Part shown: positions 40,728-46,355 of the stretch, one piece after another
Layout: each line of letters opens with the position of its first letter
How positions within the stretch are numbered: the stretch's first letter is position 1
DNA from: Clostridiaceae bacterium
Lineage (GTDB): Bacteria > Bacillota > Clostridia > Peptostreptococcales > T1SED10-28
NCBI GenBank assembly: GCA_003553525.1
Contig: PWEO01000068.1
Location: 1 to 64,000 of the forward strand
Reading direction: 5' to 3'
DNA length: 64,000 nucleotides
Program-made: the position numbers and the translations under genes
Notes under the pieces: model-generated
Database searches by the model: none
What the model was told of the DNA's origin: nothing
Seen by the model: the letters and a program-made list of their open reading frames with translations, nothing else

Positions 40728-40926
40728 AAAATTAAACGCTCCTTTATATTTATATTCTTAGTAAGCATAACAAAAAAAAAGGGTTCTGTCCAATTTTTGT
40801 AGGGTATTTCAAGGGTTATACTCTCCGCCTTAAGACGGAGAAAAAAACCGTCTCAAGGGTATTGGAGGAAAAGAGGATATGACGTATACTGAACGTACAA
40901 ACAAAAAAAAGAAAGGAGTGGAAAGG

Positions 40927-41991
40927 ATGAAGATGAATTTCGGGAAATCCTTTATGGGGATTTTATTAATAACTATAGGTGTTTTGTATCTACTGACGAA
41001 TATAGGGGTGATACCTGTAGGTCTTCGGGAGCTGATTACAACTTATTGGCCCACAGTCATCATACTTTGGGCGGCCTATCGACTGGTGGAAGGGTTATTT
41101 TTGAAAGTAAGCAATAGACGAAAATTCAATCGAATTTACTGGTCCTTAGGATTCATCATCATCGGCGGCGTGCTCTTAGAGAACCGCGCCCAATTTATTA
41201 CAACAGAGAGTATCGGTCTTTGGGGTATCGTATTTTCCATATTTATTATTTATGTAGGCCTGAGTATAGTGTTTTTCAAGTCCAATGCTATAGAATTTGA
41301 GTTCAACGGAAAAGAAGAACGGGAAGGATTTAGTGATAAGGACAACGACGAGTATCAGGAATTCCGGGAAGCGTTTGAGGATGAAAAAGTTTCATACAGT
41401 CAAAGCCATGAAGGGGAAGGATTTTCAAAGGATGAAATAAAAGAGCGGATCAAGCAAAAACAACAGGAAAAAAAATCGAAAATTAAGGAAAAATATGCGA
41501 AGGATTCTGGGAAATATGGGTATAAATCCACAAAGAGCAAGTATGGAAACGGTTCGAAGACGTATAGCTTCGAAGATTTAAAAGCCGGTAAGGAGCGATT
41601 CCACTTCGTGGGAGAAATTCGTTTAGGGGACCGACCCTGGGCATTGGAAAACAGCAGCTACAGTCTAGGGGTAGGGGAAGTTTATATGGACCTTACCACA
41701 GCTCTTTTGGAAGAAGGGGTAACCTATGTAAACCTTTCCGGATGGGTAGGCAGTGTGCAAATTATTGTTCCTGAAGATCTGGCTATTGATGTTTCCGCCG
41801 ATGTGAATATTGGCAGCGTGGAAATTTTTGGAGAGGAACAGGAGTTTTCAAGACATCACAAAAATCGTCGTTCCGGCGTATCTTCCAATTTACTGTGTTA
41901 TCGCAGCGAGGATTATGATGAGGCCCTTAAAAAAGTTCGAATCAACGCATCGGTAAATATCGGAGAGGTTTCTGTAAAAAGGGTGGGATAA
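40927..41991 (+). CDS. LiaF-like membrane protein (cell wall-active antibiotics response domain)
   Basis: N-terminal TM bundle; C-terminal LiaF-type repeat (GEVYMDLTTALLEEGVTYVNLSGWVGSVQIIVPEDLAIDVSADVNIGSVEIFG); next to NarL/LiaR-type TCS. Confidence 0.85.
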   Translation: MKMNFGKSFMGILLITIGVLYLLTNIGVIPVGLRELITTYWPTVIILWAAYRLVEGLFLKVSNRRKFNRIYWSLGFIIIGGVLLENRAQFITTESIGLWGIVFSIFIIYVGLSIVFFKSNAIEFEFNGKEEREGFSDKDNDEYQEFREAFEDEKVSYSQSHEGEGFSKDEIKERIKQKQQEKKSKIKEKYAKDSGKYGYKSTKSKYGNGSKTYSFEDLKAGKERFHFVGEIRLGDRPWALENSSYSLGVGEVYMDLTTALLEEGVTYVNLSGWVGSVQIIVPEDLAIDVSADVNIGSVEIFGEEQEFSRHHKNRRSGVSSNLLCYRSEDYDEALKKVRINASVNIGEVSVKRVG

Positions 41992-41992
41992 C

Positions 41993-43135
41993 ATGAAGTT
42001 TCTGAAAAATGTTTTTGTGCGTACCATGGAAGGAAAAAGCGTACAGTTTGATATTGTGAAAAAGTTCTGGATGAATGGATTGATCACTGTTATTTTTTCC
42101 CTGCTGGGAGTGTTGGTACTCAGTCTACTGCTTACGGAGGGAATGAGTAACAATTATCTGGAGGAACGTCTGGGAATTTCATTTTTATCCCGAGAATATT
42201 TCCGCTTTCTCTTCATTTTCGGAATCATCGGGTTATTCGCCTCCATAGGAGCCACCATAGTGGTTGGACTTCCCGTAGGAAGAACCCTTCGAAAATTACT
42301 GCACGTGATTCGGGACGCCAACGAAAAACTTTCCCGGGGAAAACTGGATTACCGCCTCAGGATTCGAGGATATATTGAACTTGAAGAAATCAGTAATCAA
42401 TTTAACCGTATGGCCCAGCGAACGGAAAAACAGGTGGAGTCCTTACAACGATTGATTAATCAAAATGAAGAATTGTTGGCCGGTGCCGAGGAAGCCGCCT
42501 CCTCGGAGGAACGAAGAAAGATTGCCCGAGAGCTCCATGACGCCATCAGCCAACAACTGTTCGCCATCAATACGACAGTGGCGGCAATTCCAAAATTAAT
42601 GGATAAGCGTCCCGAAGAGGCGAAAAAATACTTTAAAATGATCGAAAAGATGGTATCCATGGCCCAACAGGAACTCCGAGCCTTGATTATGCATCTTCGT
42701 CCCGTAAATTTGGAAGAACATTGTCTAAAAGAAGGAATTGAGAGGCTCCTTGACGAATTAGATAATAAGCATGAAAATATCGAAATTCATCAGGAACTGA
42801 ATAACATTGAAGGTTTAGCTCCCGGATTGGAAAATAATATTTTCAGAGTTACCCAGGAGGCCATTTCCAATATTCTTCGTCACTCTAAAGCCAGTAAGTT
42901 TACCGTGAAACTCTTTCAAAAAGAAAAGGTATTATCCCTAATTATTGAAGACAATGGAGTGGGCATTAAAAATTCAGAGAGCAAAAAATCCTCTTACGGA
43001 ATGGCCACCATGCGGGAGCGCATTGAAGAACTTGGGGGTCGTTTTGATGTGATTTCTTTTCCTGATAAAGGCACAAGAATTGAAGTTCGGGTTCCCGTGG
43101 GTTTACAAAGTACTTTCAAAAAAATCACGAAATGA
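41993..43135 (+). CDS. LiaS-like sensor histidine kinase (HisKA_3, HAMP)
   Basis: ERRKIARELHDAISQQLFAINTTVAAIP H-box, HAMP, HATPase motifs. Confidence 0.9.
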   Translation: MKFLKNVFVRTMEGKSVQFDIVKKFWMNGLITVIFSLLGVLVLSLLLTEGMSNNYLEERLGISFLSREYFRFLFIFGIIGLFASIGATIVVGLPVGRTLRKLLHVIRDANEKLSRGKLDYRLRIRGYIELEEISNQFNRMAQRTEKQVESLQRLINQNEELLAGAEEAASSEERRKIARELHDAISQQLFAINTTVAAIPKLMDKRPEEAKKYFKMIEKMVSMAQQELRALIMHLRPVNLEEHCLKEGIERLLDELDNKHENIEIHQELNNIEGLAPGLENNIFRVTQEAISNILRHSKASKFTVKLFQKEKVLSLIIEDNGVGIKNSESKKSSYGMATMRERIEELGGRFDVISFPDKGTRIEVRVPVGLQSTFKKITK

Positions 43136-43159
43136 TCCGGCAGGAATCTAAAAAAATGA

Positions 43160-43834
43160 ATGATGGGAGGGTCAGTTTTGGAAAAAAAAATCAAAGTAAT
43201 GCTTGTGGATGACCATGAAATGGTAAGGATGGGCCTCGGGGCATACATATCCACCGATGAAGCCATTGAAATCCTAGGGGAAGCCGGTAACGGAAAAGAA
43301 GGCGTGGAAATGGCACTTGAGAGAAAACCCGATGTTATTCTGATGGACCTGGTAATGGAAGGGATGAACGGAATTGAAGCCACCAAAGCGATAACCGAGG
43401 CTTTTCAGGAAAGAGGCTGGGAAGTTAAGATTATCGTGCTGACCAGTTTTATTGAGGAAGATAAAGTAATGCCCGCCTTAGAAGCGGGAGCTTTCAGTTA
43501 CTTACTGAAAACCACAAAAGCCGAGGATATTGTTCGGGCCATAAAAAAAGCCTATGAAGGAGAATCGGTTCTAGAGGGAAAAGTGAGCCAGGTTATGCTG
43601 AAAAGCAGCCGGAAAAAGGCGGAAAAACATGAAATTCTAACGGAAAGGGAATATGAAGTGCTTTTGGAACTGGGTCGTGGAAAAACCAACAAAGAAATAT
43701 CCGAGACCCTATTTATCGGCATTAAAACCGTAAAAACCCACGTGAGCAACATTCTATCAAAGTTGGAACTGGAAGACCGCACCAAGGCTGCGGTTTATGC
43801 AAACAAACATCATTTAGTGGATGATGAAAAATAA
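43160..43834 (+). CDS. LiaR-like response regulator (NarL/LuxR HTH)
   Basis: KVMLVDDHEMVRMGLGAYIS receiver; LTEREYEVLLELGRGKTNKEISETLFIGIKTVKTHVSNILSKLELEDRTKAAVYA HTH; alternative start at 43178. Confidence 0.93.
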   Translation: MMGGSVLEKKIKVMLVDDHEMVRMGLGAYISTDEAIEILGEAGNGKEGVEMALERKPDVILMDLVMEGMNGIEATKAITEAFQERGWEVKIIVLTSFIEEDKVMPALEAGAFSYLLKTTKAEDIVRAIKKAYEGESVLEGKVSQVMLKSSRKKAEKHEILTEREYEVLLELGRGKTNKEISETLFIGIKTVKTHVSNILSKLELEDRTKAAVYANKHHLVDDEK

Positions 43835-43850
43835 AAAAATAAAATACCTC

Positions 43851-43879
43851 TTTACAAGGAACGAACGTTCGAGTATAAT
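43851..43879 (+). promoter_or_regulatory. Sigma-A promoter of SOS-like microORF
   Basis: TTTACA-N17-TATAAT. Confidence 0.82.
43858..43871. promoter_or_regulatory. LexA (SOS/Cheo)-like box 1, inside the promoter spacer
   Basis: GGAACGAACGTTCG vs Gram-positive LexA consensus CGAAC-N4-GTTCG. Confidence 0.65.
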
Positions 43880-43888
43880 GAGAATACA

Positions 43889-43902
43889 AGAACAAACGTT
43901 TG
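43889..43902. promoter_or_regulatory. LexA (SOS/Cheo)-like box 2, at the start of the transcript
   Basis: AGAACAAACGTTTG; centre 31 bp from box 1. Confidence 0.6.
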
Positions 43903-43936
43903 ACTCGGCCAAGAGTCTATAAAAGGAGGAACCCCT

Positions 43937-44005
43937 ATGAAAGTATTTGTATTTTCCGGAACCATTAAAGATTTAAAAGCCTATCTAAAGGAATGGAAGA
44001 AATAA
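43937..44005 (+). CDS. 22-aa microprotein (MKVFVFSGTIKDLKAYLKEWKK), putative SOS-regulated
   Basis: Strong RBS AAAAGGAGGA 7 nt before ATG; flanked by strong promoter and terminator; not in the ORF track due to length. Confidence 0.65.
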   Translation: MKVFVFSGTIKDLKAYLKEWKK

Positions 44006-44008
44006 GCC

Positions 44009-44039
44009 GAAAAACCCTATAGAGGGTTTTTTTCTTTTT
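44009..44039 (+). terminator. Intrinsic terminator after microORF
   Basis: AAAACCCTATAGAGGGTTTTTTTCTTTTT. Confidence 0.88.
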
Positions 44040-44190
44040 GTTATAGTAATATTAAAATTCTTTGAGAAGAATAATTGTTTCTTTAATGAGTCAAGGGATA
44101 TATAATAAGGAAAGGACCTGTATCAAAAAAGAAAATTGCTTAAATAAAGGGTCGGTGTACAGACTACATCGCAAAAGTCTAAAGGGGATA

Positions 44191-44267: not shown

Positions 44268-46355
44268 ATGGATAAGCATCAGGAATTTCAAAAAGCAAAT
44301 GAAGGTTTTTTTCAGAGGAACCAGGTTTTACGTCGGAAAACTCAAAACTTCCCAATAAGTGTAACTACGGTGTACCTGATAGCCGGATTTTTATGGATCG
44401 CCTTTTCTGATCAATTAGTCGATTATACCCTAAGGGGAACCCCTTATTTAACCATGGCCCAGACCGTTAAAGGGTGGGTGTATGTAGGGGTAACCGGTGT
44501 GTTGTTATACTGGTTCATTCGACGAAATACTGAGGCTATGAAGACCCTTTATGAAAAGCTTGCCGCAAATTACGAGGAGTTAGAGACCCTTCATGAGGAA
44601 CTGATTTCAACCGAGGAAGACCTGGAAGAAAAATATAAAACCTTAGAGGAGAATCAGGAGAATTTACGGGTATTAAAAGAGCGCTATCAACTGGCTCTGG
44701 AAGGTTCAAAGGACGGACTTTGGGACTGGAACGTAAAGACCGACCGGTTTCTTATTACGAAACCTCGGGAACTCCTTGGATACCAGGATGCTCAGGAAAT
44801 TCACAGTCAAAAGGACTGGTTTAATTTAATTCACCCGAAGGATGTTCCGAGAGTAAAAAAAGTATTAGATCAATACCTGGCAGGTGAAACCCAAAGCTAT
44901 GAATCGGAATACCGTATACGGAATCAAAAAGGGCAATACATATGGATCCTCAGCAAGGCGAAAGCTATTTGGGACAGCGACGGAACCCCCCTTAGAGTTT
45001 GTGGCTCCCATACCAATATTACGGAGGAAAGGATTCAGGAAGAAAAAATTCAAACCATGGCTTATTATGACAGCACCACAAAAGCACCAAACCGTTTTTG
45101 GTTGGGGGAATACCTGGAAGAGCAGATTAAAATGAATAGGGATAGCAAAGAAAAAATGGCGATTCTACTGATTGATTTAGATAATTTTAAGAAGGTCAAT
45201 GATATTCTTACCCATGAGATGGGAGATCGCTTTCTTAAGGAGATTGCCAAAAGAATACAGGAAAATTTAGAAGAGGGAGAGTCCCTTACAAGATTTGGCG
45301 GGGATGAATTTGTTGTGGTAAAAACCGGAAATCCAGATCGAAATAAGATTTATGAAACCGGCAATCGACTTTTGAATATACTAAAGGAGGAAAGTACGGT
45401 AAAGGGGTATCAATTTCTCATAACAGGAAGCATAGGGGTTGCCATTTTTCCCGACCATGGACAGGATAAGGATACCCTGTTAAAAAATGCCGATGCAGCC
45501 ATGTATGAAGCAAAGAATAATGGAAGAGACCGCATGCGTTTTTATTCCCGGGAAGTGAATGAGAAAATACGGGATAACATTATTCTTGAAAGTGATTTAC
45601 GAATGGCCTTGGAAAAAGAAGAATTTATGATACAGATTCAACCCCTGATCGAAGTAAAAACCGGACGGATTATCGGCGGAGAAGCCTTATTAAGGTGGAA
45701 CCATAAAATAAGGGGAAGAATTTCCCCGGGGGAATTTATTCCTGTGGCAGAGGAGACGGGTATTATTGTTCCCATTGGAGAGCGGGTATTGAAAGAGGTT
45801 TGTATATTTAATCAGAGGTTATTCGCTGAGGGGATACAACCTGTGCCGATTTCAGTAAATTTATCGGTTCCCCAGATTTTACATAACGGACTTCTGGACA
45901 ACATCAAAAAAGTAATGGAGGACTCGGGTTTTGAGAAACCATTACTGGAAGTGGAGATTACAGAAAGTGTAATTATGAATAATCTGGATTATGCCGTGAA
46001 AATCATGAACAGTATACGTTCCATGGGAGTGAAGGTGGCTTTAGACGATTTCGGAACGGGATATTCCTCTCTTAGTTACTTGAAAAGTTTACCGATTGAT
46101 AAGCTTAAAATTGATAAAAGTTTTATTGACGGTATTGTAAAAAATGATAGTGAACAGGCGATTGTAAAATCCGTAATTGATATGGCAAAAAGTCTCGGGA
46201 TCGAAACCGTGGCGGAAGGAATTGAGCAGAAAGAACAATGGGAAATCCTGAAAAAGTATGGCTGTGACGTGGGACAGGGATATTATATGTACCGGCCCAT
46301 GGATGTAGAGGATTTCAAAGGGATTTTACGTACCCAGCAGGCAAAAAAGACGTAA
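44268..46355 (+). CDS. Membrane PAS-GGDEF-EAL c-di-GMP turnover protein
   Basis: Two N-terminal TM segments, PAS/PAC, RFGGDEFVVV, IGGEALLRW, EITESVIM, DDFGTGYSSLSYL. Confidence 0.96.
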   Translation: MDKHQEFQKANEGFFQRNQVLRRKTQNFPISVTTVYLIAGFLWIAFSDQLVDYTLRGTPYLTMAQTVKGWVYVGVTGVLLYWFIRRNTEAMKTLYEKLAANYEELETLHEELISTEEDLEEKYKTLEENQENLRVLKERYQLALEGSKDGLWDWNVKTDRFLITKPRELLGYQDAQEIHSQKDWFNLIHPKDVPRVKKVLDQYLAGETQSYESEYRIRNQKGQYIWILSKAKAIWDSDGTPLRVCGSHTNITEERIQEEKIQTMAYYDSTTKAPNRFWLGEYLEEQIKMNRDSKEKMAILLIDLDNFKKVNDILTHEMGDRFLKEIAKRIQENLEEGESLTRFGGDEFVVVKTGNPDRNKIYETGNRLLNILKEESTVKGYQFLITGSIGVAIFPDHGQDKDTLLKNADAAMYEAKNNGRDRMRFYSREVNEKIRDNIILESDLRMALEKEEFMIQIQPLIEVKTGRIIGGEALLRWNHKIRGRISPGEFIPVAEETGIIVPIGERVLKEVCIFNQRLFAEGIQPVPISVNLSVPQILHNGLLDNIKKVMEDSGFEKPLLEVEITESVIMNNLDYAVKIMNSIRSMGVKVALDDFGTGYSSLSYLKSLPIDKLKIDKSFIDGIVKNDSEQAIVKSVIDMAKSLGIETVAEGIEQKEQWEILKKYGCDVGQGYYMYRPMDVEDFKGILRTQQAKKT

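Follow-up and report, generated by a model that had tools for sequence, protein, structure and literature searches.

Organization of the transcription unit

A compact transcription unit lies at positions 43851-44040 on the plus strand of the window, by which we mean the whole 64,000-nucleotide stretch of DNA that was analysed. It begins with a sigma-A-type promoter, TTTACA-N17-TATAAT (43851-43879), in which the -35 hexamer TTTACA (43851-43856) and the -10 hexamer TATAAT (43874-43879) are separated by a 17-bp spacer. Box 1 of two LexA boxes, GGAACGAACGTTCG (43858-43871), is located within this spacer, and box 2, AGAACAAACGTTTG (43889-43902), directly past the expected start site. Each agrees with CGAACRNRYGTTYG at 13 of 14 positions, and their centres are 31 bp apart. 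A Shine-Dalgarno sequence, AGGAGG (43924-43929), precedes an open reading frame of 22 codons (43937-44005 including the stop codon; ATG at 43937, codons through 44002, TAA at 44003-44005) that encodes the peptide MKVFVFSGTIKDLKAYLKEWKK. The unit ends with an intrinsic terminator at about 44009-44040, made of the hairpin AAAACCCTATAGAGGGTTTT and a T run, which is supported by fold prediction as well as by direct reading. The sequence-only reading had described the same promoter, paired boxes, ribosome-binding site, frame and terminator, and each of these is seen when the DNA is read directly. The gene is far below the usual size limits of annotation, so automatic annotation is likely to miss it.

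A short, minor hairpin without known function, GACTC-GGCCAA-GAGTC (43902-43918, plus strand), is predicted in the 5'-UTR between box 2 and the ribosome-binding site. It is also predicted in two relatives with changed sequence, and in two of the three sequences, including the UTR of the source genome itself, the fold is no better than that of shuffled sequences. The unit adjoins an upstream histidine kinase/response-regulator pair (41993-43834) and a downstream GGDEF/EAL-type gene (44268-46355). The possibility that it is the LexA-boxed leader of one fixed gene was rejected, as the genes downstream vary among relatives. The three-gene cluster directly 5' of the unit (40879-43834) is LiaFSR-like (envelope stress) in appearance, and at minimum its kinase and regulator are retained at the same place in relatives.

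Conservation and selection

When 60 relatives were searched with the unit by BLAST, it was seen in four genomes of the same genus and one of the same family. These five relatives retain both boxes together with an almost unaltered peptide, and the promoter and both boxes are kept across the six genomes (source plus five relatives). Among the four closest sequences, all within the genus, pN is 0 while pS ranges from 0.24 to 0.47; with more distant sequences added, pS exceeds 1 and pN is at most 0.09. Since synonymous sites vary while amino acids do not, it is reasoned that the amino-acid sequence is under purifying selection. Conservation of the frame and boxes, together with this selection, favours the peptide over the RNA as the product, and the earlier suggestion that the RNA of about 130 nt is itself functional is accordingly disfavoured. 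The check proposed at the outset, conservation of the frame and boxes in related genomes, has a positive outcome in these five relatives and in the wider family described below.

A peptide family across the order

When 394 genomes of the order were searched with a profile, convincing homologues turned up in 27 of them, which belong to Natronincolaceae and two neighbouring families: six to the family of the source genome (f1), 19 to f3 and two to f7. A 28th match (G086) lies inside a 595-aa frame, is taken as chance and was excluded from the count. Named records with homologues are Alkaliphilus, Natronincola and Anaerovirgula (Natronincolaceae), in addition to metagenome-assembled genomes labelled Clostridiales or Clostridiaceae. 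The label "orphan", given to the unit from its sequence alone, must therefore be corrected: the microprotein belongs to a multi-lineage family and is a tiny, strongly conserved gene of soda-lake Clostridia.

The homologous peptides have 22-44 residues and the consensus MKxFxFxG[TK][VI]K[DE]LRxYLxxW, in which F6, G8, [DE]12, L13, [KR]14, Y16, L17 and W20 are invariant or almost so. Chromosomal copies form two groups, MKVFVFSG[TK][IV]KDLRxYLKEW and MKSMVFVGTVKELREYLxQWKK. In other families and in prophages the peptide is flanked by unrelated 5' and 3' sequences; prophage copies are found near regulators and replication-type genes, and one copy without a box lies on a viral contig, adjoining YopX and DUF2303 genes. 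The family profile finds no homologue in the wider class, where all matches beyond the order look like chance, and tblastn against plasmids and phages gives no significant homologue. Queried one at a time against Pfam, PHROGs and NCBIfam, the peptides give no match over the cut-off, and no paper describing the microprotein was found in the literature collection searched.

In three genomes (L079, L083 and L055, representing Anaerovirgula, Natronincola and a related genome), the group-2 microprotein gene is followed by an ORF that consists of a LexA DNA-binding domain only (81 aa; the L079 copy matches with E 1.5e-7). In L079 and L083 the next gene is an ORF of 81-88 aa without known family (MIDYxLxYSYxN...), and similar ORFs are also present near the microprotein copies in L063 and L068. 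It is possible that the group-2 microprotein, the LexA-domain ORF and the 81-88-aa ORF constitute an SOS operon.

LexA boxes and SOS control

Single boxes of this quality are not unusual by themselves. In the 64-kb window, 14 boxes with at most two mismatches are found against 16.9 expected, a number not above chance, and the 2.69-Mb genome contains only eight sites with at most one mismatch from CGAACRNRYGTTYG against 15 for a reversed-pattern control, again without excess. Two of these eight sites are the boxes of the unit, 31 bp from one another. That both are conserved in the five relatives settles that they are not accidental. The same genome encodes lexA (G000:C37, E 1.1e-23), and boxes are present in the promoters of lexA (AGAACTAATGTTTG) and recA (AGAACATTCGTTCG); the boxes of the unit thus fit the local operator. 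Both also overlap the promoter and fit the Firmicutes LexA consensus CGAACRNRYGTTYC/G (PMC2248561). With lexA in the genome, boxes overlapping the promoter and boxes conserved alongside the gene in relatives, these points of SOS-regulon membership are met.

The association extends to the family as a whole. A LexA box matching at least 12 of 14 positions is found within 220 bp upstream of 28 of the 40 microprotein copies examined across three families (shuffle p <=0.03 each), and in 18 of the 28 boxed copies there is a pair of boxes 27-32 bp apart. No LexA box accompanies four of the chromosomal paralogues or a further eight copies, most of which are in prophage-like loci. In a BLAST search the dual-box promoter matches yneA promoters of other families. 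LexA control of the microprotein gene, as the sequence-only reading had proposed, is therefore well supported by the joint conservation of boxes and frame, with the qualification that LexA binding and induction are inferred from sequence and not from measurements.

Distribution of YneA

The SOS response of Bacillota usually includes a division inhibitor, and YneA is the usual one. A YneA-like LysM membrane protein is encoded in 258 of the 394 genomes of the order. In families f2, f6, f9 and f11, yneA and lexA are divergently arranged and yneA has a two-box promoter; in f1, f3 and f7 no yneA is found beside lexA. Only one of the 27 microprotein genomes (G117) has a YneA-like protein, whereas 257 of the 367 others do. 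A Fisher test of peptide against YneA gives p 3e-12, which cannot be used as proof of many events, as the microprotein genomes are nearly one clade. A LexA tree groups the microprotein families in a single clade with support 96/91, and nested inside it is f5, a family with neither gene. Replacement of YneA amounts to about one event; the distribution is therefore suggestive and not a statistical proof. To that extent, the presence of the peptide where YneA is missing favours a role as a division inhibitor. In f5 genomes, and in many of f4, LexA is present and neither the microprotein nor YneA was detected.

Resemblance to MciZ

MciZ of B. subtilis (PF13072; PDB 4u39 and 2mrw) is, like the microprotein, a very short cytosolic peptide with a strand followed by a helix. 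It is an FtsZ-capping peptide, reported to be a mother cell inhibitor of FtsZ expressed under sigma-E in sporulation (PMC5045927), in contrast to the LexA boxes of the microprotein gene. Comparison of the family profile with MciZ, whose sequence was confirmed from PDB 2mrw/4u39 and PMC5045927, yields an ungapped alignment of 21 columns to MciZ residues 8-28 (E 0.0016), a score that is reached by three of 600 shuffled MciZ sequences. The aligned part spans b2, H1 and R20. In the family, MciZ residues G14, E18, I19, R20, L23, K24, E25 and Y26 are matched or conservatively replaced, and position 14 of the peptide, corresponding to R20, is K or R in 33 of 33 members. The motif [FLIVMYW]xGxxx[DE][LIVM][KR]xx[LIVM]xx[WYF] is present in MciZ and does not occur once in 185,456 control residues.

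Library searches give a weaker signal. The Pfam MciZ family is matched by five of the 33 members (best E 0.031; 14.5 bits, where the cut-off is 22.2), and the 22-aa peptide of the source genome itself has no Pfam match. In two column-permuted control sets, no Pfam family is matched by more than one member. The only family ahead of MciZ is the eukaryotic SAP domain, which is matched by more members and better (eight; best E 0.0059); SAP_RNF34 was dropped as a candidate, the listed match spanning only nine helix residues with the second helix of the domain absent. When the family profile was searched against PDB sequences, MciZ was not recovered.

MciZ has 40 residues against the 22 of the microprotein, in which the first hairpin strand of MciZ and its C-terminal third have no counterpart. 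What is present, according to the ungapped alignment, is the FtsZ-contacting strand and helix with a basic equivalent of R20. In the MciZ-FtsZ complex, R20 forms a salt bridge with FtsZ D280, b2 is hydrogen-bonded to FtsZ b9, and H1 packs on H10 (PMC10089256). As the microprotein scores below the Pfam cut-off and is without two parts of MciZ, we do not file it as a member of the MciZ family. Although every MciZ score is weak and FtsZ binding is inferred, we somewhat favour the view that its mode of action resembles that of the FtsZ-binding core of MciZ.

Predicted structure and host FtsZ

AlphaFold2 predicts an extended start followed by a helix from about residue 9-10 (strand plus helix, pLDDT ~90 in one model). 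The peptide has no hydrophobic span; a charged amphipathic helix follows the short strand. When the first model is compared by Foldseek with 350,542 PDB chains, the single match at E<=10 is 4u39_P, which is MciZ bound to FtsZ. The match is weak (E 9.6, TM 0.71 on target), and a second predicted model finds no match in the PDB.

The source genome encodes two FtsZ paralogues (G000:C15:81-563 and G000:C86:31636-32118; L144 and L145). Around position 280 both run collinear with the FtsZ of B. subtilis, and both have E280. This position is acidic in 14 of 14 FtsZ proteins examined, including those of yneA genomes, and was therefore rejected as a discriminator. Two FtsZ proteins are also encoded in both f1 relatives checked, and one in the f3, f7 and yneA-bearing genomes checked.

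Proposed function and alternatives

Based on these observations, it appears that the best explanation of the unit, to which we give a probability of roughly 60%, is a LexA-controlled, MciZ-like inhibitor of FtsZ, a Gram-positive counterpart of SulA. It is preferred because items that are individually weak combine with LexA control. Among the options once listed for the peptide, division inhibitor, toxin or modulator, the first is favoured by the missing YneA and by the MciZ resemblance. FtsZ is a good hypothesis for the target, with binding inferred, and it is likely, again by inference, that the peptide stops division during DNA damage. In an undamaged cell, LexA would keep the gene off by occupying both boxes, of which one lies inside the promoter and the other at the start site; upon DNA damage, RecA would be activated, LexA cleaved and the peptide made. 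Residues 2-8 would form an extended strand and residues 9-22 a helix, a layout like that of b2 and H1 in MciZ 8-28. The strand may add to the C-terminal sheet of FtsZ while the helix lies against H10 and K/R14 is paired with the acidic residue at position 280 of FtsZ. Filaments would thus be capped and the Z-ring blocked, and division would be delayed until repair. For the further reading that these peptides are a family of the smallest known FtsZ inhibitors, the case is evenly balanced: a 22-residue strand-helix element, like MciZ by kinship or by convergence, may have been put under LexA in one Peptostreptococcales clade, taken over the SOS division checkpoint from membrane-bound YneA, been duplicated and entered prophages.

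LexA control and the conservation of the peptide do not depend on the MciZ link, which leaves room for an SOS microprotein that acts as a plugged-in strand-plus-helix on a partner other than FtsZ, such as RecA, LexA, a replication initiator, a polymerase or the late divisome. The paralogues that share an operon with the LexA-domain protein and the 81-aa protein without known family point in that direction, as do the prophage copies close to regulators and replication-type genes. However, no comparable full-length match exists in Pfam, PHROGs or NCBIfam, and the lineage lacks YneA; we consider such a partner rather unlikely, though it deserves to be kept in mind.

The other readings carry far less weight. 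Small size, LexA control and no need for an antitoxin gene would suit a TisB-like type I toxin that is induced in the SOS response and acts on the membrane, but the absence of a hydrophobic span and the charged amphipathic helix, apparent both in the sequence and in the predicted strand-helix model, make it very improbable. Slightly less credible still is a LexA-controlled small RNA in which the short transcript is the product and the frame is incidental or a leader: the compactness of the unit, the promoter and terminator that it has to itself, and a 5'-UTR hairpin that pairs in some relatives would be in keeping with it, yet amino acids are fixed where synonymous sites vary, the same peptide is carried on unrelated flanks in other families and prophages, an Rfam scan gives no match, and the UTR fold does not surpass shuffles. 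A chance frame next to boxes without LexA function has in its favour that single boxes this good are expected by chance in 64 kb; it is refuted by the fact that many genomes, from three families, have kept both the frame and the boxes.

Relation to known division inhibitors

The MciZ-like FtsZ inhibitor proposed here would belong to a known kind, the SOS division inhibitors, and its mechanism would be one that is not known to serve this role among Gram-positive bacteria. SulA, which inhibits division in the SOS response of E. coli, binds to FtsZ; it is a folded protein several times larger than the microprotein. The two are alike in LexA control and in the proposed role as a cytosolic FtsZ antagonist, but no sequence relation between them is seen. 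The Gram-positive SOS division inhibitors known so far are membrane proteins; YneA, ChiZ, SosA and DivS each have a membrane segment, and most of them also a LysM domain (PMC6851548). They have the role proposed for the microprotein, and the yneA promoters of the same order share its dual-box layout, whereas the microprotein has neither a membrane segment nor a LysM domain (no Pfam match). SidA of Caulobacter is likewise a very small SOS-induced division inhibitor, but it is membrane-anchored and targets late division proteins, not FtsZ (PMC6851548).

If the proposal is true, it explains how division halts on DNA damage in bacteria without SulA and YneA, and the microprotein is, among Gram-positive bacteria, the first SOS division inhibitor known to be cytosolic and directed at FtsZ. 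A 22-residue FtsZ-binding peptide would represent a checkpoint design different from that of the membrane-protein inhibitors. It would also be a natural minimal FtsZ-capping peptide. As synthetic MciZ supplied externally makes B. subtilis filament (PMC5045927), such a peptide could serve as a probe or lead.

A search of the class for the MciZ family itself gives no match over the cut-off, and tblastn of MciZ homologues in plasmids and phages returns none that is useful. One genome of the same class (L091, G407) contains a 46-aa ORF with a ribosome-binding site, MTQFVFKQSVIICGKSSEIVKYIKNLATQFATVKELIDSKMKILKQ, that resembles full-length MciZ, under the Pfam cut-off; it is possibly a clostridial MciZ.
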